DNA from: Acidobacteriota bacterium
GTDB lineage: Bacteria > Acidobacteriota > Terriglobia > Terriglobales > Acidobacteriaceae
Direction: 5' to 3'
Assembly (NCBI GenBank): GCA_025359885.1
Contig: JANYDG010000112.1
Coordinates: forward strand, 1-64,000
Length of the DNA stretch: 64,000 nt
In this document: in pieces, positions 13,615 to 31,690 of the stretch
How the letters are laid out: every line of letters starts with the position of its first letter
Numbering within the stretch: position 1 is the stretch's first letter
The notes under the pieces: model-generated
Told to the model about the DNA's origin: nothing
Databases searched by the model: none
The model's input: only the letters and a program-made list of their open reading frames with translations
Program-made: the position numbers and the translations under genes

Positions 13615-13743
13615 ATGCAAAATAGAAAGGTGAAGGAAATCTCCGTACTTGAGCTGTGTGCAGGCGCTGGCGGTCAAGCTCTCGGCTTAAAATGCCGGTC
13701 CTGGTCATCCGTGCTAGCTGAAATCGGCAAGCGTTCAAAGTAA
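13615..13743 (+). pseudogene. remnant of a cytosine-C5 DNA methyltransferase (motif I only)
   Basis: A 42-codon frame, MQNRKVKEISVLELCAGAGG then QALGLK, matching the N-terminus and S-adenosylmethionine-binding motif I of Dcm-type methyltransferases. Recognisable but decayed sequence continues (VLAEIGKRSK, where intact enzymes have an Asp after the Ile) and then a TAA stop. Nothing of the catalytic PC motif or target-recognition region follows before the regulator gene 83 bases downstream. The rest of a gene normally around 350-450 codons has therefore been deleted. Its neighbours are a regulator, an HNH nuclease and a NaeI-type restriction enzyme, so it is the former modification gene of that system. 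Confidence 0.75.
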
Positions 13744-13777
13744 TTGATGTTATTGCACTGCACATCGATTATTGAGT

Positions 13778-13792
13778 GTTCTAAAGTAGAAC
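13778..13792. promoter_or_regulatory. candidate operator of the XRE regulator
   Basis: Perfect inverted repeat GTTCTA-AAG-TAGAAC, 33 bases before the GTG of the XRE gene. Position and symmetry resemble a C-box recognised by restriction-modification controller proteins; the assignment is inference. Confidence 0.35.
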
Positions 13793-13825
13793 GCTAATTC
13801 CTTCGTTGAGCATTACGCTTTCAAA

Positions 13826-14071
13826 GTGTCCCCCACCTCATACCCTCGAAATATCTGCGGCAGTCGAATAGCTGAAGCACGGGGCCGAGCGAAGCCTCCG
13901 CTCACGCAGGAAGCCTTGTCCGCGAAATTAGCTCTCCTCGGCGTAAACATGGATCGAGCTGCAATTGCAAAGGTAGAAAATCAACTTCGTCGAGTTCTCG
14001 ATTATGAATTAAAAGAGTTGTCAGCGGCCTTGGACGTATCTGTTGCATGGATGCTCGGTAGCGACCAGTGA
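13826..14071 (+). CDS. XRE-family transcriptional regulator (controller-protein-like)
   Basis: An 81-residue protein starting at GTG and consisting of a single helix-turn-helix domain: RIAEARGRAKPPLTQEALSA is followed by a recognition-helix-like VNMDRAAIAKVENQLRRVLD and a typical domain end (LSAALDVSVAWMLG). It overlaps the HNH gene by 4 bases (GTGA), so the two are translationally coupled. In restriction-modification loci such small XRE proteins often time expression of the endonuclease. A candidate palindromic operator lies 33 bases upstream. Confidence 0.78.
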   Translation: MSPTSYPRNICGSRIAEARGRAKPPLTQEALSAKLALLGVNMDRAAIAKVENQLRRVLDYELKELSAALDVSVAWMLGSDQ

Positions 14072-14721
14072 AGGACTCCACGTCACAATTACGCTCAGCG
14101 ACTAGGCGAGCGAAGTCTGACGTCGCCAACAAACTCATTAGCATGTTTCTTCATGAACTAAGTAGAGCCATATCCAAAGATTGGGTGCTACGAGTCGATC
14201 AGGAACAATATGGAGAACTCGTCCGGCAATACTTTTCCAATCGTTGCCCCTATTGCCTTATCGACCTGACAAATTCAACCGCAATCGTGGAACACTTAGA
14301 CGGAATGAACCGCTACCGAGCAGGTCTTCACGTTGTCGGTAATGTATTGGTCGCGTGTAGAAAGTGCAATAGTGAAAAGCGTCGTGATGACTCGCTGAAA
14401 GCCCTGACGTTAGCCTCTTCGGGTTGGGCGTCCTTCTTATCTCACGATGGAATGGCCTGCGCATCAGGCTGCAAAACCTGTCGTTATTGGGAATCCGTGT
14501 GGGTTGATCCCGGTGAGAGGAAAAAGAAGCTCACTGAGAACTTGCAACGTATTATCCAGTTCCGTGCCATTTTTCCCGAATTTCAGTTAGCCCTCCCCAC
14601 ACTGGCCCAAGCTCTGCCCATATCGCTTACGAAGCTGTACTCTGATTGTCAAATATTTGCAGAAACGGAGATCAAAACCCTCCTGTTGAATTTCATTGCG
14701 GCTTCAGAGAACCAATCCTAA
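14068..14721 (+). CDS. HNH endonuclease of the restriction island
   Basis: A 217-residue protein. The HNH/zinc signature occupies about residues 59-112: CPYCLIDLTN, then IVEHLDGMNRYRAGLHVVGN, then LVACRKCNSEKRRDD. Two CxxC pairs bracket the His and Asn catalytic core. A later CxxxCxxC-like cluster (CASGCKTCRYW) may bind a second zinc. It starts at GTG overlapping the regulator stop and faces the convergent NaeI-type gene. It could be a second endonuclease or a nicking/accessory enzyme of the system. The base composition is visibly less GC-rich than in flanking genes, which suggests acquisition by transfer. Confidence 0.78.
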   Translation: MKDSTSQLRSATRRAKSDVANKLISMFLHELSRAISKDWVLRVDQEQYGELVRQYFSNRCPYCLIDLTNSTAIVEHLDGMNRYRAGLHVVGNVLVACRKCNSEKRRDDSLKALTLASSGWASFLSHDGMACASGCKTCRYWESVWVDPGERKKKLTENLQRIIQFRAIFPEFQLALPTLAQALPISLTKLYSDCQIFAETEIKTLLLNFIAASENQS

Positions 14722-14770
14722 CTAACGAATAGTTTGCGCTTGCAAATCCCAGCCATATGGAGGGGATGGG

Positions 14771-15655
14771 CTAGTGAATGATAGCCGCAGATAGTGCTAT
14801 GAACTGAGTACCCTCACCCTCTGTCTCTTCCTCATACTGGCCGCTCGATCTACGCAGTACATTTTGCATTTCCAGCCCATTCCGGTCGCAGTAATGCGCA
14901 AAGTTAGTCATTAAGTCCGTAAGATTTTGGAGAGCCATCTCTCGACGCTCATCCTCTGTCGCATCGAAGTGGGGCGACTCTCCATAAAATTCAAAGAATT
15001 CAAGAACTTTACCGGCCCACTCTGCGCGCTCATCATTCATACAGTCGGGGTCCGCAGGCATTCGAGTCTTAACCTTGCCCGCCATGAAGTGTGCCTCCTT
15101 GATTTCAGGATAGCTCTGAAAGTTTGCATACGGTTCATCCCTCAAAAGCCAATGAACACTTTCCATCCCGATCTTTGAAATGGTTCGCTTACCGTCCCGA
15201 TTTTTACCCAGATTCAAAAGCGCATCGGTAATGACCACAATACCAAAGGAACAAGTTGCCTTCTCTTCATGCGCCTTCACAAGGAGGCAAGGGTGGCCCA
15301 CAGCCTCTTGCGGAATCGTCCAGTTAGTCCCAATCGTGTTCTTGATATCCACTTCAATACCGTCGATCGAGAGATCGAGTACCTTACCCTTGCTCATCTT
15401 CAGGTAGTTGCGGAGAAGTATCTCGATCTTCGTACCAAGATAGGTCTTCTCCGTTTTCTCAATTTCATCGAGTGTGAACCGGTTGGAACGAGCAGAGTCA
15501 ATTACCTCGTCAATAGCCCTGCGCAGCAAAGCGGAAAAATTCACCTTGAAATTCTCAAAGCCCTTCGCCTTTTGCAGAATTGCAGTTTCCAGGCGTTGAG
15601 TTTGCTCATAGTCTGGATGCGTCGGAGCAAGTCCGCGTGTATTACCTTCGACCAT
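14771..15655 (-). CDS. NaeI-family type II restriction endonuclease
   Basis: A 294-residue protein with the hallmark NaeI block IGTNWTIPQEAVGHPCLLVK followed by NLGKNRDGKRTISKIG. The PD-(D/E)xK site reads E78, D94, D103 and K105 (in KVLDLSIDGIEVDIKNT). This has exactly the spacing I recall for the NaeI catalytic set Glu70, Asp86, Asp95, Lys97, so the enzyme appears catalytically intact. NaeI cuts GCCGGC after binding two sites; whether this homologue shares that specificity is unknown. The gene converges on the HNH gene. The expected partner methyltransferase survives only as a fragment at 13615-13743. Confidence 0.88.
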   Translation of the reverse strand: MVEGNTRGLAPTHPDYEQTQRLETAILQKAKGFENFKVNFSALLRRAIDEVIDSARSNRFTLDEIEKTEKTYLGTKIEILLRNYLKMSKGKVLDLSIDGIEVDIKNTIGTNWTIPQEAVGHPCLLVKAHEEKATCSFGIVVITDALLNLGKNRDGKRTISKIGMESVHWLLRDEPYANFQSYPEIKEAHFMAGKVKTRMPADPDCMNDERAEWAGKVLEFFEFYGESPHFDATEDERREMALQNLTDLMTNFAHYCDRNGLEMQNVLRRSSGQYEEETEGEGTQFIALSAAIIH

Positions 15656-21943: not shown

Positions 21944-22001
21944 AAAAGCTCCTCAGCATGACAAGTTCAGGATTACAAGTTCTGGATGACAAGTAATTTT
22001 G

Positions 22002-22076
22002 TTTGTCATCCTGAGCAAAGCAAAGGACCTGCTTCTCCCACTTCACACTCACACTTCACACTCACACTCGCTTCTG
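22002..22076 (+). repeat. dispersed repeats upstream of rsmG
   Basis: A second GTCATCCTGAGCAAAGC copy (22006-22022, continuing AAAGGACCTGC) is followed by a tandem CACTTCACACTCACA tract (about 22039-22072). The reading frame stays open through both, which would give rsmG a spurious 31-residue extension. Confidence 0.75.
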
Positions 22077-22091
22077 TCCACGTGCCAAAAG

Positions 22092-22709
22092 ATGCCCACT
22101 CGCCTCAACCAACTCCTCGAGGAATCCGGCAGTACCCCCCTGCCGCCTGATCTACACGAAAAATTCGCCGCCTACCTGGCCCTCCTGCTCAAATGGAACG
22201 CCAAAACCAATCTCACCGCCATCCGCGATGAAGAGGGCATTCTCAGCCGCCACTTCCTCGAATCCATCCTCTGCGCCCGCGCCCTCCCCTCCGGCATCAC
22301 CACCCTGCTCGATTTCGGCTCCGGCGCAGGATTCCCCGGCCTGCCCATCGCCCTCCTCCGCCCCGACATCGCCGTCACCCTCGCCGAATCCCAGAACAAA
22401 AAATCCGCCTTCCTCCGCGAAGCCATCCGCACACTCGGGGTCACAGCCGCCGTCCACTCCGCCCGCGCCGAAACCCTCACCGCCAGATTCGACTGCGTCA
22501 CCCTCCGCGCCGTCGACAACATGCAGCAAGCCATCCCCGCGGCCCTTCAGCTCCTCGCCCCCAAGGGCACCCTCGCCGTCCTCACCACCCTCGACAACAT
22601 TCCCATGATCCAGTCCCTCGCCGCCGCAACCACCTCCCTCCAGTGGCTCCCACCCCACCCCCTCCCGCGTGGAACAAACCGCATTCTGCTTCTGTCAAAA
22701 AGCACATAA
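22092..22709 (+). CDS. rsmG: 16S rRNA (guanine-527-N7)-methyltransferase
   Basis: A 205-residue RsmG/GidB enzyme that methylates N7 of G527 in 16S rRNA. Family signatures are LLKWNAKTNLTAIRDEEGIL, RHFLESILCARAL, the S-adenosylmethionine-binding LLDFGSGAGFPGLPIAL and VTLAESQNKKSAFLREA, and FDCVTLRAVDNM. The start at 22092 (MPTRLNQLLEESG) matches the family N-terminus; the longer open frame upstream translates intergenic repeats and is rejected. rsmG next to parA-parB is the classic origin-proximal arrangement, consistent with the composition switch just downstream. Confidence 0.95.
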   Translation: MPTRLNQLLEESGSTPLPPDLHEKFAAYLALLLKWNAKTNLTAIRDEEGILSRHFLESILCARALPSGITTLLDFGSGAGFPGLPIALLRPDIAVTLAESQNKKSAFLREAIRTLGVTAAVHSARAETLTARFDCVTLRAVDNMQQAIPAALQLLAPKGTLAVLTTLDNIPMIQSLAAATTSLQWLPPHPLPRGTNRILLLSKST

Positions 22710-22769
22710 TTACCATTCAACCAACGATTTTCGCACTTCAACCCATATGTCTCGCATTTCGCCGAAAAA

Positions 22770-22785
22770 TGTCACACGTGTAACA
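22770..22785. promoter_or_regulatory. parS-like palindrome, copy 1 (TGTCACACGTGTAACA)
   Basis: One mismatch from the perfect palindrome TGTCACACGTGTGACA. It lies in the rsmG-parA spacer. Confidence 0.6.
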
Positions 22786-22818
22786 TTCCTCCCGGCCCCC
22801 GAAAAACACCCCGTTCTT

Positions 22819-22844
22819 GCAAATGTCACACGTGTGACATTTGC
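22819..22844. promoter_or_regulatory. parS-like palindrome, copy 2 (perfect, extended)
   Basis: The core TGTCACACGTGTGACA (22824-22839) is extended by GCAAA and TTTGC to a perfect 26-base palindrome. It lies 340 bases upstream of parA. Confidence 0.65.
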
Positions 22845-22927
22845 AGCTCTCGCTCCAGTTTCAACCCAGATTTACTCCAGACCAACTCCAGACCAGACCC
22901 GACTCGACCTGACTAGACCGCCAGTAC

Positions 22928-22957
22928 CAGAGAATGTTCCATGTGGAACATTCTCTG
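22928..22957. promoter_or_regulatory. near-canonical parS-like site (TGTTCCATGTGGAACA)
   Basis: The core at 22935-22950 differs from the widespread parS consensus TGTTTCACGTGAAACA by the CC/GG pair and the central TG. Complementary arms extend to 14 bases on each side (CAGAGAATGTTCCA and its mirror). Confidence 0.6.
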
Positions 22958-23179
22958 AAAAGTCGAAAAATTAATCTTCTTTTCTCGCGACATTTCCACC
23001 GCGATTCACCGCCCTGTGGATTCTTTTTGACCGCTCTCGATGCCACAAAACCCCAATCAAATCAATCGGTTTCAGCACCAGCTCCAAAGCAGATGCTCAA
23101 GTTCTCCACAGGCCTGCTCGCTCAAAACCGCTGTCAAGTCGCTTTCGCTTCCTGACCGTTCCAGATACTCTTGACTTCC

Positions 23180-24043
23180 ATGGGCAAAATTCTAGGAATC
23201 GTCAATCAAAAAGGCGGCGTGGGAAAAACCACCACCGCCATCAACCTCGCCGCCTGCCTCGCCCTCGATGGACTCAAAATCCTTCTAGCCGATTGCGACC
23301 CCCAGGCAAATGCCACTTCCGGGGTCGGTGTGCAGCGCGACGACAATCGCCACTCCATCTACGACGTACTGATGGGCGACGCTCCGGCCGCACAAGTACT
23401 GTTGCCTACTGAGATCGGCAACCTCACATTGCTGCCCGGCAGCAAAAACCTGACTGGCGCAAACATTGAGTTGGCCGGCGCGGAAGACCGCGCCCTGCGC
23501 CTGCGCAAGGCTCTTGCGCCCATTCAAGGCGATTTCGATCTGGTCGTTCTTGACTGCCCGCCGGCGCTGGATCTTCTGACGTTGAATTCGCTTGCAGCCG
23601 CCGACAGCCTGGTCGTGCCGATGCAGGCAGAGTACTTTGCACTCGAAGGAATCTCGGAGCTGGTCTCAACCCTGGAGCGAGTGCGGGCAGCGTTCAATCC
23701 GCGGCTGACGATTGAGGGTGTGCTGCTGACGATGTACGACGATCGGACGAATCTGGCGCAGCAGGTGACGGAGACATTGCGGGAGTATTTCAAAGATCGG
23801 CTGTTTCGGACAGTGATTCCGCGGAATATTCGATTGGCAGAGGCGCCGAGCCACGGGAAGCCGGTGGCTTTGTATGATGCGCGTTCGAGGGGAACTGAGG
23901 CCTATTTTGAGTTGGCGGCCGAGTTTATGGAGCGGAACAAGATTCCGAATCCCAGGGCAGAGGCGCGGAAGCTGGCGGCTGCCGAGGCGGAGCAGATGGC
24001 GAGCCGGACGGGCAAGACGGTAAAGTTCTGGCCGTACGGTTGA
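23180..24043 (+). CDS. parA: chromosome partitioning ATPase ParA/Soj
   Basis: A 287-residue ParA-type ATPase. The start MGKILGIVNQKGGVGKTTTA carries the deviant Walker A motif with its signature lysine. LLADCDPQANATSG is the A' motif, and FDLVVLDCPPALDLLTLNSL the Walker B region. ATP-driven ParA dimers on the nucleoid move ParB-bound origins apart. The ATG at 23180 is used, not the TTG 9 bases earlier. Codon usage changes within the gene: the first half prefers C-ending codons and the last half G-ending codons, marking the strand-composition switch. parB follows after a 271-base spacer with three parS-like sites. Confidence 0.95.
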   Translation: MGKILGIVNQKGGVGKTTTAINLAACLALDGLKILLADCDPQANATSGVGVQRDDNRHSIYDVLMGDAPAAQVLLPTEIGNLTLLPGSKNLTGANIELAGAEDRALRLRKALAPIQGDFDLVVLDCPPALDLLTLNSLAAADSLVVPMQAEYFALEGISELVSTLERVRAAFNPRLTIEGVLLTMYDDRTNLAQQVTETLREYFKDRLFRTVIPRNIRLAEAPSHGKPVALYDARSRGTEAYFELAAEFMERNKIPNPRAEARKLAAAEAEQMASRTGKTVKFWPYG

Positions 24044-24068
24044 GCGGGCCGTTTTGGTGGGGGCAAAA

Positions 24069-24084
24069 TGTTACACGTGTGACA
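24069..24084. promoter_or_regulatory. parS-like palindrome, copy 3 (TGTTACACGTGTGACA)
   Basis: One mismatch to the consensus palindrome; 26 bases after the parA stop. Confidence 0.6.
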
Positions 24085-24131
24085 TTTTCAGGATAGGGGC
24101 TGATTTGGGGTGGGTTTGAGGTTCAGGCAAA

Positions 24132-24147
24132 TGTCACACGTGTGACA
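24132..24147. promoter_or_regulatory. parS-like palindrome, copy 4 (TGTCACACGTGTGACA)
   Basis: A perfect palindrome flanked by AAA and TTT, in the parA-parB spacer. Confidence 0.65.
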
Positions 24148-24263
24148 TTTGAGCCGGTCCTGGTGGAATTGTAAGGGACTGAGTGGGTATTGTCGGCAAG
24201 GTCTGGACCTTTTTACCTCGGGCTCAACAGAGATTGGGGCAGGAACTTGATTTGGAAGGAGAA

Positions 24264-24279
24264 TGTCACACGTGTGACA
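24264..24279. promoter_or_regulatory. parS-like palindrome, copy 5 (TGTCACACGTGTGACA)
   Basis: A perfect palindrome 36 bases before the parB start, where bound ParB could also repress its own gene. Confidence 0.65.
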
Positions 24280-24314
24280 TTTTGGAATCTGGTTTGGATT
24301 GGGAGAGATGAGAG

Positions 24315-25226
24315 ATGGTGACAGCAGAGAATAAACGACCGGGAGCGGGGCGCCTCGCACTTGGAAAAGGGTTGGACTCACTTTTGCCGCGTGTAGTGGC
24401 TGCGGCGACGCCGGAGGCAGAAACAGCTTCAACAGGCAAGCCGCTGGAGATTCCGGTCGGGGAGATTGAGCGCAATCCCTTTCAGACGCGCATGCACTTT
24501 GATGAAAAACTGTTGGCGGAACTGGCGGAATCAATCCAGGCGAATGGCGTCGTGCAGCCCATCCTGGTGCGGGCGTTGCCGGATGGGCGCTACCAACTGA
24601 TCGCTGGCGAGCGACGGTTAATGGCTTCAAAGCAGGCGGGAAAGGCGACAATCCCGGCGATTCTGCGGCAGGTCTCGGACGAGCAGGCGATGGAGATCAC
24701 CATCGTTGAGAACCTGCAGCGGGCCGACCTGAATCCAATCGAGCAGGCGCGGGCCTACGAACGGCTGGGCCGCGAGTTTGGCATGACGCAGGAGCAGATG
24801 GCGTACCGGACAGGCAAGGAACGCGGGACGGTTGGAAACTTTCTTCGGCTTTTGAAATTGCCGACCAGCGTACAGGACAAGATCGGTTCGGGTGTGTTGA
24901 GTTTCAGCCACGCACGGGTTTTGCTGACGTTGGACCACCTGGAAGATGCTGAGGACGTCACAGCCAAGATTCTAGCACTTTCGCTTTCTGTTCGCCAAGC
25001 TGAAAGCTACGTCCAGAATCAAATGTTCGGGGAAAGGCCGGAAAAAAAGCAGCCGGTACAGCTGCCGCTGGTTGACCCTAATGTGAAGGAAGCACAGCAG
25101 CGGTTGCAGCGAGCGCTGGGGTTGCGGGTGAGGATTGAGGATAAGAACGGACGGGGGCGGGTGATTATCGAATACAGCGGCCTGGAGGACTTTGACGGGC
25201 TGCTGGAGCGGATTGTTAACGAGTAG
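24315..25226 (+). CDS. parB: chromosome partitioning CTPase/DNA-binding protein ParB
   Basis: A 303-residue ParB. The N-terminal Soj-interacting peptide is LALGKGLDSLLPR near residue 15. The CTP-binding ParB core includes IPVGEIERNPFQTRMHFDEK, VVQPILVRALPDGRYQLIAG, GERRLMASKQAG and ITIVENLQRADLNPIEQARA. A helix-turn-helix follows (FGMTQEQMAYRTGKERGTVG), and a C-terminal dimerisation segment ends the protein. It loads at parS and spreads as a clamp. The local parS-like sequences deviate from the common consensus, so the specificity residues in the recognition region deserve comparison with other ParB proteins. Confidence 0.95.
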   Translation: MVTAENKRPGAGRLALGKGLDSLLPRVVAAATPEAETASTGKPLEIPVGEIERNPFQTRMHFDEKLLAELAESIQANGVVQPILVRALPDGRYQLIAGERRLMASKQAGKATIPAILRQVSDEQAMEITIVENLQRADLNPIEQARAYERLGREFGMTQEQMAYRTGKERGTVGNFLRLLKLPTSVQDKIGSGVLSFSHARVLLTLDHLEDAEDVTAKILALSLSVRQAESYVQNQMFGERPEKKQPVQLPLVDPNVKEAQQRLQRALGLRVRIEDKNGRGRVIIEYSGLEDFDGLLERIVNE

Positions 25227-25333
25227 GGACGAGCTGGCGGGGTATAGGGAAAAGGGAGTTGCTGCGGAGAATCCAAGGCAATTCTTTGGTAATGTACATG
25301 ACTGACTATGCGATTTCCTGAACTGTCGATTTT

Positions 25334-25940
25334 ATGGAACTGATTAAGACTCTTGTCGATGCCAAGCACTTTGCCGACCCTGAGAGCTGCCACAAGTTCA
25401 TGATTGCGGTACCTTGGGCCGACGGGGTTCGACGTTACCCATGCTGCGGAACTACTAAGCTAACGTGGCCTGCAAAGGCGAAAGTGTATCGCTGCTATAG
25501 CGACCATCCGAACAGAAGTTCTCGCTTAAGGTTGGGACCGTATTTGAGGATTCGGCGATTAGGCTGGATAAATGGTGGCCAGCGGTTTGACTCATCTCAA
25601 ATTGCAAAAACGGAATCAGCAGCTAGGAGCTGGGCCGCTATATCGGCGTTACCCAAAAAACGGCATGGTTCATGCTTCACCGTATCCGAATGGCGATGCG
25701 GACCAACTCGTATCTGAAGGTTGGCGGAAACGGTGCACCGGTCGAAGTTGACGAGACATTCATAGGCGTCAAGGCTAGGAATATGCACCGCAACAAACGC
25801 AAGGAAGCGATGGGATACAGGCACAAAGGGAAGACTTTAGTGCTCGGCATTCTTGAGTGCGGCGGCAAGGTCCGGGCTGAGACTATCACGGACCGGGATA
25901 AGCCCACCCTGCACGGCAAGATCAATGGCAGAGATTCAGC
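25334..25940 (+). pseudogene. broken IS1595-family (ISXO2-like) transposase
   Basis: Three stretches can be joined by eye. An N-terminal zinc-ribbon part runs from MELIKTLVDAKHFADPESC and is frameshifted near 25505. The second stretch, KVGTVFEDSAIRLDKWWPAV, is interrupted by TGA at 25588 and TAG at 25624. The DDE-like part, VEVDETFIGVKARNMHRNKR then GKTLVLGILECGGKVRAETI, breaks off near 25920, where the remaining C-terminal half is missing. No clear terminal inverted repeats were seen. The coding sequence cannot produce an active transposase. The DUF3800 gene begins just past the break. Confidence 0.78.
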
Positions 25941-25967
25941 CCGACAGGTTTCGCAGGAGGCATTTTT

Positions 25968-26783
25968 ATGCTGCTACACGGATACATGGACGAGAGCTAC
26001 GGCAAAGACCAAAATATATTTTCCTTCTCATGTCTTTTGGCGAGAAGAAAAGATTGGGACGACTTGGAGAGGCGATGGAAACGTCATATCGACGCCAAAA
26101 ACAAGCAGCTCAGCAACGAGGGCAGGCCGGTAATTAGCCGCTACCATGCCTCCGATTGCAGCGGATGTCGCGGGGAATTTAAGGGATGGGATCGCGACGA
26201 GCGAGACGCATTCGTCCTGAGACTATTCGAGGCTTTCAAGCTGTTTCCTTCGCATACAGTTGCAATTGAGATGCAGCTCAATGATCTTTGCGAGGTATTC
26301 CCTGAATGGGCCAACGATCGATTGAAGGCGGGGTATCACGTTTTCACTCAATTCATCATGCTCCAAATTGTTGAGGACGTGCGACGCAATAGCGTCAAAA
26401 ATGCTTCCACTAAGGTGAAGCTGTTTCACGACCGGACTGGAGGAAACGGTAAAGGAAACGGCAAATATGACCCGACTATCCTCCAAGCCTTCAATCAGCT
26501 GGTCAACAATCAAGGATTCGATGGGAGTGATTACTTCACGACCATCGCCCCGCTGAGATGGGAGCATTCAATCGCTCTTCAGCCTGCCGATTTGGTGGCC
26601 TTCGAGTGCTTCAAGATGGCTGAAGCAAAGCTGGAAGTTAGGAACGCCAGAAAGTCATTCACGGCTCTATATGACATGGAGACGTTCGGAATTCATGCGA
26701 TGGGATTTCGCAAGGAACATATGGTTGAATGGAGGGGAAAGCTTGAAGCTGGAAGGGTGACGGAACCGACCGACGAGGAGTAG
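25968..26783 (+). CDS. DUF3800 protein
   Basis: A 271-residue protein with the N-terminal acidic DUF3800 signature LHGYMDESYGKDQNIFSFSC and the later block IALQPADLVAFECFKMAEAK, which carries the Asp expected near the end of this RNase H-like family. Members are frequent in mobile and defence islands; no activity is established for this one. It has a good ribosome site (GGAGG 9 bases before ATG) and an intact frame, so it is probably expressed. Low GC relative to neighbours and contact with a dead transposase point to recent acquisition. Confidence 0.75.
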   Translation: MLLHGYMDESYGKDQNIFSFSCLLARRKDWDDLERRWKRHIDAKNKQLSNEGRPVISRYHASDCSGCRGEFKGWDRDERDAFVLRLFEAFKLFPSHTVAIEMQLNDLCEVFPEWANDRLKAGYHVFTQFIMLQIVEDVRRNSVKNASTKVKLFHDRTGGNGKGNGKYDPTILQAFNQLVNNQGFDGSDYFTTIAPLRWEHSIALQPADLVAFECFKMAEAKLEVRNARKSFTALYDMETFGIHAMGFRKEHMVEWRGKLEAGRVTEPTDEE

Positions 26784-26968
26784 AGAGAACCATTTTCTAT
26801 GGTTAGTCAGTCACGTATATTATTACCAATACCTTCTTCATCTTCGAATCAATCAATTCGATTTGAAAGGTACATGGATCCTGACTTTGTAAATTTATTG
26901 CGATAGACGAAATGACTGATTGCTGTGCGGCCCACCTTGGCCTATAGTTGCTGCGAGGTTCTTCCCCT
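26784..26968. other. AT-rich spacer, nothing recognised
   Basis: Contains a TCGAATC/ATTCGA inverted pair around 26844-26861. No gene, terminator or known repeat was recognised. Low GC suggests it belongs to the inserted stretch. Confidence 0.4.
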
Positions 26969-27778
26969 ATGAAATTTCTCAACTACTGCGACTGGTGGAG
27001 TCGCAGGAATGCTCCCCTTGTCATCGACAACGCTGAAGCGACGTTTACCACGAGTGCTCTGCCGGGTGTGGGAGTGATGAAGGCCTTCCGGGCGTTGTCG
27101 CACCCCGGGGACACGGAAGCAATGAAGGCCGAACTCCTCTTTCAAGTGTATGTACAGTGGCTGCATAAGTCTGGCTGGACGTGGGCTGGCGGTGGCTCGT
27201 GCGGTTCACCGCTGGTGCTGGATAACCCTCCCGGGGAGAAAGAGTGCCAGGCCTTTGCGGTGGGCTTGAAGACCCTGATGATCGCGCCGTGGCCGTTTGG
27301 GCTTGGGATAGCGGAAGCTGGGGTGACTGTGACGCCTTATTCGGGACCTCTGCTCGGGGGGTCGAAAGTTGGATTTGTGTCACTGCACCCGACCGCTGGC
27401 GTGCTGAATCTGAAGCCGAACGTGACGCGGGGCGGGATCGTGGACGACGACCTCGGCAACCAGGGGTTGTACCGCTGGGACAACCACAAGGTGGTGTTGT
27501 ACGGAGGGAAGTATTTTGACCCTTCGTATGGATGCCAATACCTGACGCTGGCGGATATGGCTTACCAAACGGTGGTGGGATTTGGTTTAACCGGGGGAGC
27601 AGCGCCTGCAACCTACGATGCCTGGGATCTTGCAGCCGACAATGACCAGACGGGGAACTACTACCTGGTGTGCCGGTCTGCGCTGGGACGGCAGTACCAC
27701 CTGAAGGTGCGGAAGCTTTCGTTACGACCCTCGATTACGCAATGGTACGACGGGCCAGTGGCGGCTGTGGTGGGGTGA
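26969..27778 (+). CDS. transglutaminase-like fold protein (tentative)
   Basis: About 269 residues from the ATG at 26969 (MKFLNYCDWWSRRNAPLVID); a TTG 21 bases earlier is in frame. No signal peptide. A Cys-His-Asp arrangement resembling transglutaminase-like peptidases can be read: ECQAFAVGLKTLM as the nucleophile helix, then YRWDNHKVVLYGGKYFDPSY supplying His and Asp. Order and spacing fit that fold, but overall similarity was not tested. It converges on a NucA/NucB-type nuclease gene. Confidence 0.5.
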   Translation: MKFLNYCDWWSRRNAPLVIDNAEATFTTSALPGVGVMKAFRALSHPGDTEAMKAELLFQVYVQWLHKSGWTWAGGGSCGSPLVLDNPPGEKECQAFAVGLKTLMIAPWPFGLGIAEAGVTVTPYSGPLLGGSKVGFVSLHPTAGVLNLKPNVTRGGIVDDDLGNQGLYRWDNHKVVLYGGKYFDPSYGCQYLTLADMAYQTVVGFGLTGGAAPATYDAWDLAADNDQTGNYYLVCRSALGRQYHLKVRKLSLRPSITQWYDGPVAAVVG

Positions 27779-27803
27779 GACATAATTGAGGGATGGTGCA
27801 TGC

Positions 27804-27828
27804 GAGGCCGGGGCGATACCCCGGCCTC
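27804..27828. terminator. hairpin between convergent genes
   Basis: GAGGCCGGGG-CGATA-CCCCGGCCTC, a perfect 10-base stem with a 5-base loop between two convergent stops. There is no T-run, so it may be a repeat palindrome rather than an intrinsic terminator. Confidence 0.4.
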
Positions 27829-27844
27829 TGAAGCCGGGGGGAGC

Positions 27845-28288
27845 TCATGGACGGACGGGGCCCTTGGGGTGGTTGATGACGCGGACCTCAAACTTGCGGT
27901 TTTCGCCGGTGGCGCTGATCCCGTTCTTCTTAATGAACGCAGCAATCATGCCACCCTGGACGGAGTTCTCTCTGGGAGGGACTGAGCCTACCCAGGGTTC
28001 GCGCCCGCCAAACATGGAAGCCCCTTCGACAGTACAGGCGAAGGGATACTCGTCGCGTGAATTGAAGGCTGCGTTTGGTGTGCCTTTGGGAAAGGTCGGG
28101 ATCTGGTATGTCTTCCCACTGACCTCATACAACATGGTTTGCTTGCGGATCTCACGGCTGTCTTCGGTGGGGAGGGGTCCGCGATAGGTGAGAACGCGTT
28201 CCCAGCCAGCCATTTGAGCCTGCCAGATGTTGTCGGCGATGTTGGGGAGGAGATCCCAGTCGAATTCAAGGACGGGGTAAGAAGGCAT
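27845..28288 (-). CDS. NucA/NucB-type deoxyribonuclease domain protein
   Basis: About 147 residues from the ATG at 28288, which has GGAG 8 bases upstream. The C-terminal half matches the NucA/NucB pattern: SRDEYPFACTVEGASMFGG, then GSVPPRENSVQGGMIAAFI and a closing beta segment FEVRVINHP. In Bacillus these enzymes are secreted non-specific DNases. Here no signal peptide is visible, so the protein may be an intracellular effector or exported another way. Its convergent partner at 26969 is a possible transglutaminase-like protein. Any functional link is inference. Confidence 0.6.
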   Translation of the reverse strand: MPSYPVLEFDWDLLPNIADNIWQAQMAGWERVLTYRGPLPTEDSREIRKQTMLYEVSGKTYQIPTFPKGTPNAAFNSRDEYPFACTVEGASMFGGREPWVGSVPPRENSVQGGMIAAFIKKNGISATGENRKFEVRVINHPKGPVRP

Positions 28289-28538
28289 GATGCACACTCC
28301 AGTTGTAAGTGCGGTCGCTTCCCGATGACAAACAACTTATACCAGATTGACGGAAATCATCCATCGAGGGCTCATCTAGGGCTCATCTGTATTCACTCGA
28401 TTGACTTTATGTAAGGACTGCACCCTTCAACCTATTGATGCCAGTGCGCAATGGGACGGGCCTTCCGCACTCTCTTCCCTCAAACCTGCAATCCTGACCG
28501 AGCCCGATGGGCTGGTGGCCTCGTGGGTGAACCGGGCG
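28289..28538. other. spacer, nothing recognised
   Basis: A short direct repeat of AGGGCTCATCT near 28366-28388 is the only pattern seen; no gene was found. Confidence 0.4.
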
Positions 28539-29663
28539 TTACGGTTGTTTTGACTCATCCTCTGCTGCTTTGCTGCCAGATACGGGCTTGTATTGCCTTT
28601 CGAGGATGCTTTGGATGTAGCGGCTGCGCTCGGGATACTTGAGTCGTGCAGGGTTTTTGGGAAGCTGGGCGGGCTCCAGGAGCCGCCACGACTCGGGTGC
28701 CTGGTGAGGATCGAATCCTACATCGGCCATGTAGGAGAGGGCCATTCTGCTCAACTCGTGCTCCACCGAGCTTTTGACCTTATGACGGATGACCATCTCT
28801 CCTGCCTCACCCACCACGCCGGGCACCCAGCCCCCGAATCCCATCAGATATGGGGCCATTTCCGCGGCGTCTTTCAGGGTGAATCCACGCGCTGCCTCGA
28901 CCTGCTGTTGCAATTCACCGGCGATGCCCTCGGCCAAAACGGCGGCGAGCTGGTCTTCATTCTGCAGGCGATGGACGACTTCTATTGGGACGAGGATCAG
29001 GCCTTTGCCGCAGAAGATCGCGGATCGGATTTCCGTTTCTTCGACGAGGTAGAAGCGGAATGGAATCTTTGTGGGGTCGTTGTCTGGAAGTTCGCGCTGA
29101 TATTGCGGGACAAGTTTTTGTCCGAGGCGAATCATTGATTCCTGCATTGCCGGGTCGCTGGGGACGTAATACCATCCGCACCACCCGCCGTGGTCTTCTT
29201 TGAGGAACGCTTTGGGACCGGTGGCGAAACCAGTGGAGCCATCAATTCTGTTTCCTGGCAGGGGCGTGGTGAACTGCAGCGCATTGGGATCGGGTTTGCT
29301 TTTGTGCAGATTGAGTTTGACAAATGCAGCTTTGGTGGCCACGATGGTGCCGGAATCGTCGGGCTCTCCGGAAAAGATCGCCAAGGTATTGGTAGACACC
29401 TCTCTCAGGGCCTGCAGGCCCTTTCCGAAGTGCAACTCGGTGGTGGGGAGGATGCGAATGGTGTATCCGTCGGCTCGGAAGACGGATGCGGAGCCGGGTT
29501 GGGAGCCGGCGTCTGGGATGCGGGCCGGGATGCGGTCAATGATGCCAGCGCCGGTGATGGGCTTGTTGGTGTCGGGGCGGGGAGAGGCGGCCTTCAGGGA
29601 AGGAGTTACAAGCACGCAGAGGAGAAGGACCAGAAAGCGCTTCGAGATAGGAAATGGGTTCAT
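28539..29663 (-). CDS. secreted M48-like protein with degenerate zinc site
   Basis: A 374-residue exported protein starting MNPFPISKRFLVLLLCVLVT, a signal peptide. The region NEDQLAAVLAEGIAGELQQQ aligns with the M48 metalloprotease helix, which is normally VLAHEIAHxxxxH; here HEIAH is replaced by EGIAG, so the zinc ligands are absent. A later stretch, LSRMALSYMADVGFDPHQAP, resembles the M48 third-ligand region without its usual Glu-x-x-x-Asp. It is therefore likely a catalytically dead relative, perhaps a structural or chaperone-like envelope protein. The longer open frame upstream is only an antisense shadow of dnaN. Confidence 0.65.
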   Translation of the reverse strand: MNPFPISKRFLVLLLCVLVTPSLKAASPRPDTNKPITGAGIIDRIPARIPDAGSQPGSASVFRADGYTIRILPTTELHFGKGLQALREVSTNTLAIFSGEPDDSGTIVATKAAFVKLNLHKSKPDPNALQFTTPLPGNRIDGSTGFATGPKAFLKEDHGGWCGWYYVPSDPAMQESMIRLGQKLVPQYQRELPDNDPTKIPFRFYLVEETEIRSAIFCGKGLILVPIEVVHRLQNEDQLAAVLAEGIAGELQQQVEAARGFTLKDAAEMAPYLMGFGGWVPGVVGEAGEMVIRHKVKSSVEHELSRMALSYMADVGFDPHQAPESWRLLEPAQLPKNPARLKYPERSRYIQSILERQYKPVSGSKAAEDESKQP

Positions 29664-29758
29664 GAAGATTCGTAAGATACGGAGGACTATAGCATGACCT
29701 TCGATGGAGGGTAACTTACGGAATGCTGAAGCTGATTCCCATGAGGGGAAAGCCAAGG

Positions 29759-30898
29759 TCAGATGCGCATGGGCATGAGGACGTAGCGGTATTTGTATTC
29801 GCCGCCGGGGTCGTCGGCGCCTGCTTCGGGGCGCATCTGGCCGGCGGATTGGCCGTCTTTGAATTCGAGGCGAACTTCGCCGTCGTTGCCGAGCGCTTTG
29901 AGGAAGTCGAGCATGTAGCTGGAGTTGAATCCTACGACGAGTGGGTCGTTGGTGTAGGGGGTCTCGATGGTGTCTTCTGACTCGCCGGACTCGTTGGACT
30001 GGGCGGAGATCCTGACTTCGTTTTGCTCGAGCTTGATGCGAACGGCGCCGGAGCGTTCGTCGGCAAACTGGGCAACGCGGCCGATGGCGGCGGCGAGTTC
30101 GGAGTTCCGGACGACGACGAAGCGGGTGTTGTCTTTGGGCATGACTGCTTCGTAATTGGGGAACTGGCCGGTGAGTTTGCGGCTGGAGAGGGTGCGATGG
30201 CCGATGCGGAAGAAGAGCCAAAGGTCGTCGTCGGCGAACTCGATATGGGTGGCGTCGGTGCTGGAGAGCAGGGACTGGAGTTCGGCGAGGGCTTTGCGCG
30301 GGATGAGGATGCGCTTTTCACCGGAGACGCCGTCGAAGAGTTCTTCAGCTTTTTCGACGAAGGCGAGGCGGTGGCCGTCGGTGGCGACCATGGCGATGGA
30401 TTCAGCCTTGAGGATGAGGAGGGCGCCGTTGAGGGTGTAGCGCGACTCTTCGTTGGAGATGGAGAAGATGGTGCGCGCGATGAGTGCCTTGAGGACGGCG
30501 ACGGGGATTTTGGTGCTGGAAACTGTGGGCAGCTCGGGGACCTGGGGGTAGTTAGCGCGGCCGAGGCCGACCATCTTGGTGTTGGACCGGCCGGAGCGGA
30601 TCTGGACCCAGTGGTTTTCGAGGAGCTTGATGGAGATATCACCGTCGGCGAGGAGCTTGACGTAGTCAAATAGCTTGCGGGCGGGGATGGTGCAGGCACC
30701 GGCTTTTTTGACCTTGGCCTTGAGGCTGGTGCGGATGGCCTGGTCGAGATCGGTGGCGGTGATGTGGACGATATCGGCGTCGGGGTCTACTTCAATGAGG
30801 AAGTTGGAGAGGATGGGGATGGTGGTTTTGCGCTCGACGACGGACTGAATGGCGGTGAGTTCCTTGAGGAGGTCCTGGCGGGTTACGGTGATTTCCAT
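29759..30898 (-). CDS. dnaN: DNA polymerase III sliding clamp (beta subunit)
   Basis: A 379-residue clamp, starting MEITVTRQDLLKELTAIQSV with GGAGG 5 bases upstream of the ATG; longer in-frame starts at 30967 and 31012 are rejected for this reason. Family landmarks include ERKTTIPILSNFLIEV, the middle-domain MVATDGHRLAFVEK and the C-terminal YVLMPMRI forming the partner-binding pocket. It tethers the replicative polymerase to DNA. Its proximity to rsmG and parAB fits an origin-linked location; dnaA, often upstream, is not in the window. The gene lies on the lagging strand if the origin is near 23.5 kb. Confidence 0.95.
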   Translation of the reverse strand: MEITVTRQDLLKELTAIQSVVERKTTIPILSNFLIEVDPDADIVHITATDLDQAIRTSLKAKVKKAGACTIPARKLFDYVKLLADGDISIKLLENHWVQIRSGRSNTKMVGLGRANYPQVPELPTVSSTKIPVAVLKALIARTIFSISNEESRYTLNGALLILKAESIAMVATDGHRLAFVEKAEELFDGVSGEKRILIPRKALAELQSLLSSTDATHIEFADDDLWLFFRIGHRTLSSRKLTGQFPNYEAVMPKDNTRFVVVRNSELAAAIGRVAQFADERSGAVRIKLEQNEVRISAQSNESGESEDTIETPYTNDPLVVGFNSSYMLDFLKALGNDGEVRLEFKDGQSAGQMRPEAGADDPGGEYKYRYVLMPMRI

Positions 30899-31690
30899 GG
30901 TTCCTCCCGGGGCGACCGGACTGGTAGAGAAGTTTGATTCGAGAACGTCGATTTCGAGCCCTGACATGGTTGATTCCTCTCGTGGAGCGAGCATTTGCGG
31001 GCGTGATGCCAATGTACACCACGGAGGTCGCGGAACGCCTGTTCTGTCTTGATTGTATTGATTTTGGTGCGTGAGGGTTGGTGGAAAACGGGGGGCGAAA
31101 TGTCGGAAATGGGTGTGGAGATGAAGTTAGTGGATGGGGTGGAGCCGGGGTTGAGGGAGTGGGACGTTGGCGGCGGGTGAAAAGGGGGGTACGGGTACTA
31201 AGGAAAAGAAGAAGAAATAGATATGTAAGAGCCGTAGTAGTACCCGTTCGCGGTGGGAAAGTGGAAATGAGAGGGGAAACGTCGATTGACGGGGGTTTGG
31301 GGCAGGGGTGAGTTTTCTAAAAAAAGACTGTGGAATTGAGGGTAAGTGGAAAGCTGGATTTTCAGGGGGAGAAGCGTACCCGGGGATGCACGGTTTGCAC
31401 AGTGAGGATGGCTGGGTATGTGGATTTGTGGGTGAGTGGAGTGGAAAGGTGGGAAGAGGGCAGGATTGATGCGGGGATTGAGGAGAGAAGATTTGCACCG
31501 GGGAGGGGATGTCCACGGTTTACACAGGGGATGGGCAGGCTGGTGAGAAAGCGGGTCTCCCAATCTTTTGGAGCAACTCTGGCAAAGGCAGTTCAGCTTG
31601 CCTCAGGGGCTAAAGCCCTGCAATTTTCGCTGGATGTATGTACGGGCTGAAGCCCGTACCCTTCGGAAACTCGACTCGATCAGAAGTTCC
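30899..31690. other. long spacer upstream of dnaN with intergenic palindromes
   Basis: G-rich non-coding DNA with no convincing gene. Two palindromes of one type are at 31604-31620 (CAGGGGCTAAAGCCCTG) and 31640-31659 (GTACGGGCTGAAGCCCGTAC). Two DnaA-box-like words, TTTGCACA (31394-31401) and TTTACACA (31519-31526), are too weak to call an origin. The dnaN promoter should lie at the left end. Confidence 0.5.
31604..31659. repeat. pair of GGGCTxAAGCCC palindromes
   Basis: CAGGGGCTAAAGCCCTG and GTACGGGCTGAAGCCCGTAC, separated by 19 bases. The second has 9-base arms around GA. They lie downstream of the ADOP-remnant stop. Confidence 0.65.

Follow-up and report, generated by a model that had tools for sequence, protein, structure and literature searches.

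The locus occupies positions 13,615 to 15,655 of the window (by which we mean the whole 64,000-nucleotide stretch of acidobacterial DNA that was analysed). Re-checking the ORF positions confirmed the gene order and coordinates that had been predicted: the stub of a C5 methyltransferase (MTase), an XRE-family regulator, an HNH nuclease and a convergent NaeI-type gene. The intact part of the locus is the XRE-HNH cassette, a 0.95-kb pair. The features are:

13615-13743, plus strand: ORF of 42 codons with the MTase stub
13615..13740, plus strand: MTase remnant, the beginning of a GCCGGC-type C5 methyltransferase (first ~25-40 codons, with motif I), its frame kept to ~codon 25
13778..13792, no strand: palindrome GTTCTA-AAG-TAGAAC, the probable XRE operator (predicted)
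13814..13819, plus strand: TACGCT, a -10-like element directly before the GTG start
13826..14071, plus strand: XRE-family regulator, 81 aa, GTG start (HTH_3, E=0.0013)
14068..14721, plus strand: HNH nuclease, 217 aa, overlapping the XRE stop (HNH_5, E=0.003)
14245-14391, plus strand: HNH core, residues 60-108
14771-15655, minus strand: whole NaeI-type ORF, 294 aa, the NaeI fragment with a foreign C-terminus
14771..15085, minus strand: small accessory protein, ~105 aa, in frame with the NaeI fragment, with a possible ATG of its own at 15083-15085
15086..15655, minus strand: NaeI endonuclease-domain fragment, residues 1 to ~183, Topo/effector domain missing

The island is poor in GC (48%, against 63-67% in the flanking genes), and restriction genes are absent from the syntenic slot beside an aldehyde dehydrogenase gene in five same-genus genomes; both the low GC and the acquired origin given in the original prediction thus hold. 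In relatives, the slot is occupied by different genes. An assembly artefact is unlikely, the identical architecture being present in a second genus (locus L017); the window has the L017 arrangement in another genus, with an MTase stub, the cassette and a convergent cut NaeI gene. The count of GCCGGC in the window (64 seen, 72 expected) reveals no avoidance and is uninformative. About 9 kb from the island, positions 21999-31012 hold rsmG-, parA-, parB- and dnaN-like genes (names that we assigned by reading the sequences) and the GC skew changes sign near 23 kb, probably marking a replication origin region. Just after parB, at 25334-26133, overlapping ORFs resemble a broken transposase, which by eye we take to be IS1595-like.

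The MTase stub is a genuine C5-MTase remnant reduced to motif I, as had been proposed. It matches the PADLOC C5-MTase models (E=2e-6) and is 57-75% identical to its relatives, with ~25 codons in frame, then indels, and homology that fades by ~codon 40; its first 60 bp are little decayed. A longer MTase trace, sought before the palindrome, gave chance scores only. No intact cognate C5 MTase accompanies this stub of 25-40 codons: a genome-wide Pfam search of the 94.8%-complete genome detected no other copy, and the MTase type associated with NaeI and NgoMIV was not detected there, which agrees with the earlier reading. The sole C5 MTase that this search found elsewhere adjoins an EcoRII-type enzyme (L001, contig C28 of the same genome), the two forming a complete pair of C5 MTase and EcoRII-N/C enzyme. 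The suggestion that another methyltransferase protects the genome is thus not supported within the C5 class to which the search was confined.

The NaeI-type gene is likewise broken. It matches the Pfam NaeI family at E=1e-33, with the match confined to residues 40-175, and is therefore half an enzyme with a foreign C-terminus; similarity to NaeI stops near residue 175-186, leaving the pair of endonuclease and Topo domains incomplete. Over the first ~180-200 residues the fragment shares 45-64% identity with most NaeI relatives and 36% with L025, the most distant of them, and it keeps E78, D94, D103 and K105, which align with the catalytic residues of NaeI. The window's half violates 0.1 of 35 invariant positions, and may represent either a recent break or a fragment still under selection; since it keeps the invariant residues and decay is slight in the initial 60 bp of the MTase stub too, one recent break would explain both. 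The NaeI fragment in L017 (L017:5247-5813), unlike the window's copy, has lost the aligned catalytic residues and 11 of the 35 invariant positions. In NaeI, the domain missing from the window's copy binds a second DNA site. The enzyme is of Type IIE and is stimulated through such a second site (PMC4081073). With the domain that binds the stimulatory site gone, the remaining half is predicted to be probably inactive.

The C-terminal ~100 residues of this ORF have no relation to NaeI. They match a small free-standing ORF found beside other XRE-HNH copies (28.5% identity to that of L051, E=6e-8). The 294 aa may form a functional fusion of NaeI and small protein. This ~105-aa protein, with a LLADLMHWCDR motif, recurs at the cassette in L048, L049, L051, L053 and L058 in three arrangements; it has no Pfam family and has distant matches on five mobilizable plasmids.

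Intact versions of the restriction system show what has been lost. In the stretches examined, nine relatives encode a NaeI-type enzyme together with a full MTase of about 315-325 aa, and Vsr is seen in most; in a sister system, an MTase of the same type accompanies NgoMIV (PF09015, E=3e-121) and Vsr. NaeI recognises GCCGGC. The recognition site of NgoMIV is the same (PMC4081073). These GCCGGC systems with Vsr are the source of the MTase, NaeI and Vsr remnants, whose gene order is that of the intact relatives; they differ from the window, where MTase and NaeI are both truncated. The MTase has lost its 3' end and NaeI its Topo domain, so that this is probably a dead restriction system, for which no cognate MTase is needed; with both genes broken, it is unlikely that an active NaeI faces a chromosome lacking protection. 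The lethality that the original prediction expected from loss of the modification gene mostly disappears, NaeI being truncated too and parts of both genes removed. Its suggestion of a silent nuclease fits NaeI best, and that of a methylation-independent system under XRE control best fits the HNH half: the XRE-controlled nuclease still looks functional (as predicted), but XRE and HNH form a separate cassette, found in many broken loci, and are not parts of the NaeI system.

In the cassette, the XRE and HNH genes share four bases, and wherever the upstream side was recovered the neighbour of HNH is an XRE gene of 81-82 aa; the window's XRE is 51-65% identical to 11 cassette homologues. The 15-bp palindrome GTTCTA-N3-TAGAAC lies 33-34 bp upstream of the GTG start in all 14 cassettes with a readable start (with one mismatch in L017), occurs once in the 4.2-Mb genome and had zero chance occurrences in shuffles. 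Between palindrome and GTG, most cassettes have a TAC.CT-like element at conserved spacing; a standard sigma-70 scan found no promoter, and the position of the -10-like element just before GTG suggests a leaderless XRE-HNH message. XRE would then probably bind the palindrome overlapping the cassette promoter and set the level of this message, with the HNH nuclease as the presumed effector. The arrangement of XRE and operator follows controller-type regulation (PMC2997769). Cassette ends are sharp, neither the sequence left of the palindrome nor that right of the HNH stop being conserved.

The HNH residues are invariant in 14 sequences, and all 14 members match PtuB-type HNH models; a single-sequence structure prediction of HNH (mean pLDDT 47) was set aside. 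For cassette copies close enough to measure, the dN/dS of XRE and HNH is 0.11-0.20, and at the level of codon substitution both genes are under selection in the family. In the sample of the order, 20 of 397 genomes have a match to HNH, in some cases partial or weak, and all 20 belong to one bacterial family; a phylum-wide set of 396 genomes has full-length matches in that family only. No match to HNH came from plasmids, phages or viral contigs.

Fragments of MTase, NaeI or Vsr lie near the cassette in 12 of 16 loci, and within 80 bp in 10; the other four cassettes (L052, L054, L057 and L058) have no restriction remnant. In two of these, L057 and L058, from two genera, the cassette stands directly upstream of a dnaG-like gene. 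Where MTase is present at a cassette it is always the 5' part alone, with no clear C-terminal remnant at any cassette and no functional, intact MTase beside any of the 16. Conversely, an even draw of 398 genomes contained 27 intact and five truncated MTases of the NaeI/NgoMIV-associated type, and four of the five truncated copies are beside a cassette; the fifth (G380:C65) lies at the end of a contig, where it passes into a repeated element. Most of the genomes surveyed are drafts. The remnant search used MTase, NaeI, NgoMIV, Vsr and the accessory protein as its only references, so that specificity for the GCCGGC restriction type is suggestive only. Related ORFs of unknown nature (KIHLxIVEVMKRFP...; L049:7965-8531 and L060:1988-2572), without a Pfam match, lie near two cassettes and are perhaps the N-terminus of another nuclease.

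The truncations are separate events, two of them strongly supported, because the MTase tree sets truncated copies among intact ones: that of L056 groups with its own genus's intact copy (support 100/98) and that of L017 with the intact copies of its genus (98/85), while further truncated copies fall in other places of the tree. Uninvaded alleles exist in relatives, L138 for L056 and L020/L021 for L017. L138 (intact) and L056 (cassette), from one genus, agree at 84% in the 5' part of MTase and at 79% in Vsr from ~residue 33. The 1.55 kb of L138 that separates these two regions (the MTase 3' part, NgoMIV and the Vsr 5' end) has no counterpart in L056, where the cassette and ~0.4 kb of unrelated DNA lie instead; as the wider flanks differ, the comparison is of the restriction system rather than of the chromosomal site. 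The pairs L018/L025 and L017/L021 fit this picture of replacement: L018 has kept the last ~53 NaeI codons and a full Vsr (81% identity to L025), and L017 has kept MTase residues 1-131, 92% identical to an intact copy, beside a decayed NaeI. The cassette occurs in both orientations relative to MTase (L056 and L059), is inverted within a single context between L048/L051 and L053, and L049 has two copies, one broken and one intact and inverted. A single insertion site, as a fixed truncation of MTase at residues about 103-145 might imply, was rejected: the exact ends differ and G380:C65 enters a repeated element, so that we claim no precise site.

On balance we lean towards reading the locus as a broken GCCGGC-type system whose middle was replaced by an autoregulated XRE-HNH nuclease cassette, possibly through homing-like spread. 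In one bacterial family the core of these restriction systems has given way to the cassette several times, each time independently. The copying step, we infer, would begin with HNH cutting inside the MTase 3' region or the restriction gene of an uninvaded allele, after which imprecise repair would copy the cassette in and trim both sides. The stronger proposal, that XRE-HNH is a chromosomal homing cassette that targets GCCGGC-type MTase and restriction genes, replacing and so disarming them, we put forward tentatively, as less likely than not. The cassette does possess a nuclease domain of a homing class (HNH). Against strict homing, junctions are not at one exact site, 0.9-1.5 kb is lost and four copies are without remnants; and where precise insertion keeps both target halves, here the MTase 3' part and neighbouring sequence are always lost.

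The main rival is a general-purpose defence gene settling in dispensable loci: XRE-HNH would be a small defence module of the usual kind, gained and lost in the variable slots between core genes, for which restriction loci are tolerant landing sites and no targeting is needed. The resemblance of the HNH core to PtuB and other defence HNH proteins, the four cassettes that sit between housekeeping genes without remnants and the differing gene content of the window's slot in relatives are all consistent with this. Yet the remnants identified, within the limited reference set, are all of one restriction class, and the near-constant presence of a cassette at truncated MTases of the NaeI/NgoMIV-associated type is not predicted by tolerance alone; we regard this rival as rather unlikely. 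Less probable still is that HNH is a Type IV enzyme attacking the 5-methylcytosine DNA made by the MTase, with the cassette viable only where the MTase is dead and therefore seen at sites of its destruction, much as methyl-specific nucleases exclude MTase genes by killing in the case of McrBC (PMC2614495). HNH is weakly similar to Type IV models, and no cassette genome in the surveys has an intact MTase of this type; but zero co-occurrences against about one expected is not significant, the window's genome retains its EcoRII-type C5 MTase, and, as the NaeI/NgoMIV-associated MTase type is missing from most of the genomes drawn, the majority of cassettes would be expected at other places. That XRE and HNH are the controller and restriction enzyme of a Type II system of their own, with the MTase stubs as decayed partner, we rejected as very improbable despite a controller-like anatomy as in PvuII (palindrome, leaderless-looking start, overlap with the nuclease gene; PMC2997769), since no intact example exists among 16 cassettes, yet XRE and HNH are under selection, and the MTase fragments are separate truncations of distinct NaeI or NgoMIV systems.

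If the middle of the system was indeed replaced by the cassette, the missing protective gene is explained by repeated breakage of GCCGGC-type systems by an XRE-HNH pair, and the seeming paradox, a restriction gene that has lost its protector, is resolved. Type II restriction systems act like addictive elements and resist being lost. Here nearly every broken MTase of one type has the same small nuclease cassette beside it, a natural experiment repeated across a family, and XRE-HNH is a candidate element that can be tested directly for the ability to displace restriction systems. A targeted search of partial literature found no description of an XRE-HNH pair that does so.

Several known systems share parts of this design. 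Controller-protein operons such as PvuII likewise have a small HTH gene that overlaps the nuclease gene, an upstream palindrome and a probable leaderless message, but at the cassettes a functional MTase partner is absent. The HNH core is similar to that of Septu PtuB (best E 2.6e-8 in the family), with the similarity spanning ~55-60 residues only; XRE stands in place of the PtuA ATPase, and no ATPase was noticed when the ORFs listed around HNH were inspected. Free-standing homing endonucleases of the HNH class in T4-like phages (the mob genes) are alike in being small HNH genes that recur at one locus class, with uninvaded alleles, and in such intronless homing the cut may lie away from the insertion (PMC2988022). 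XRE-HNH differs in being chromosomal, in having its own regulator and in its imprecise junctions, and cutting is here only a proposed activity. There is an earlier case of an unrelated gene replacing a restriction system: in Helicobacter pylori, hrgC, predicted to encode a transmembrane protein, takes the place of HpyAXII (PMC10273834); there one system is replaced in one species, whereas here a nuclease pair, XRE-HNH, replaces several systems in several genera.
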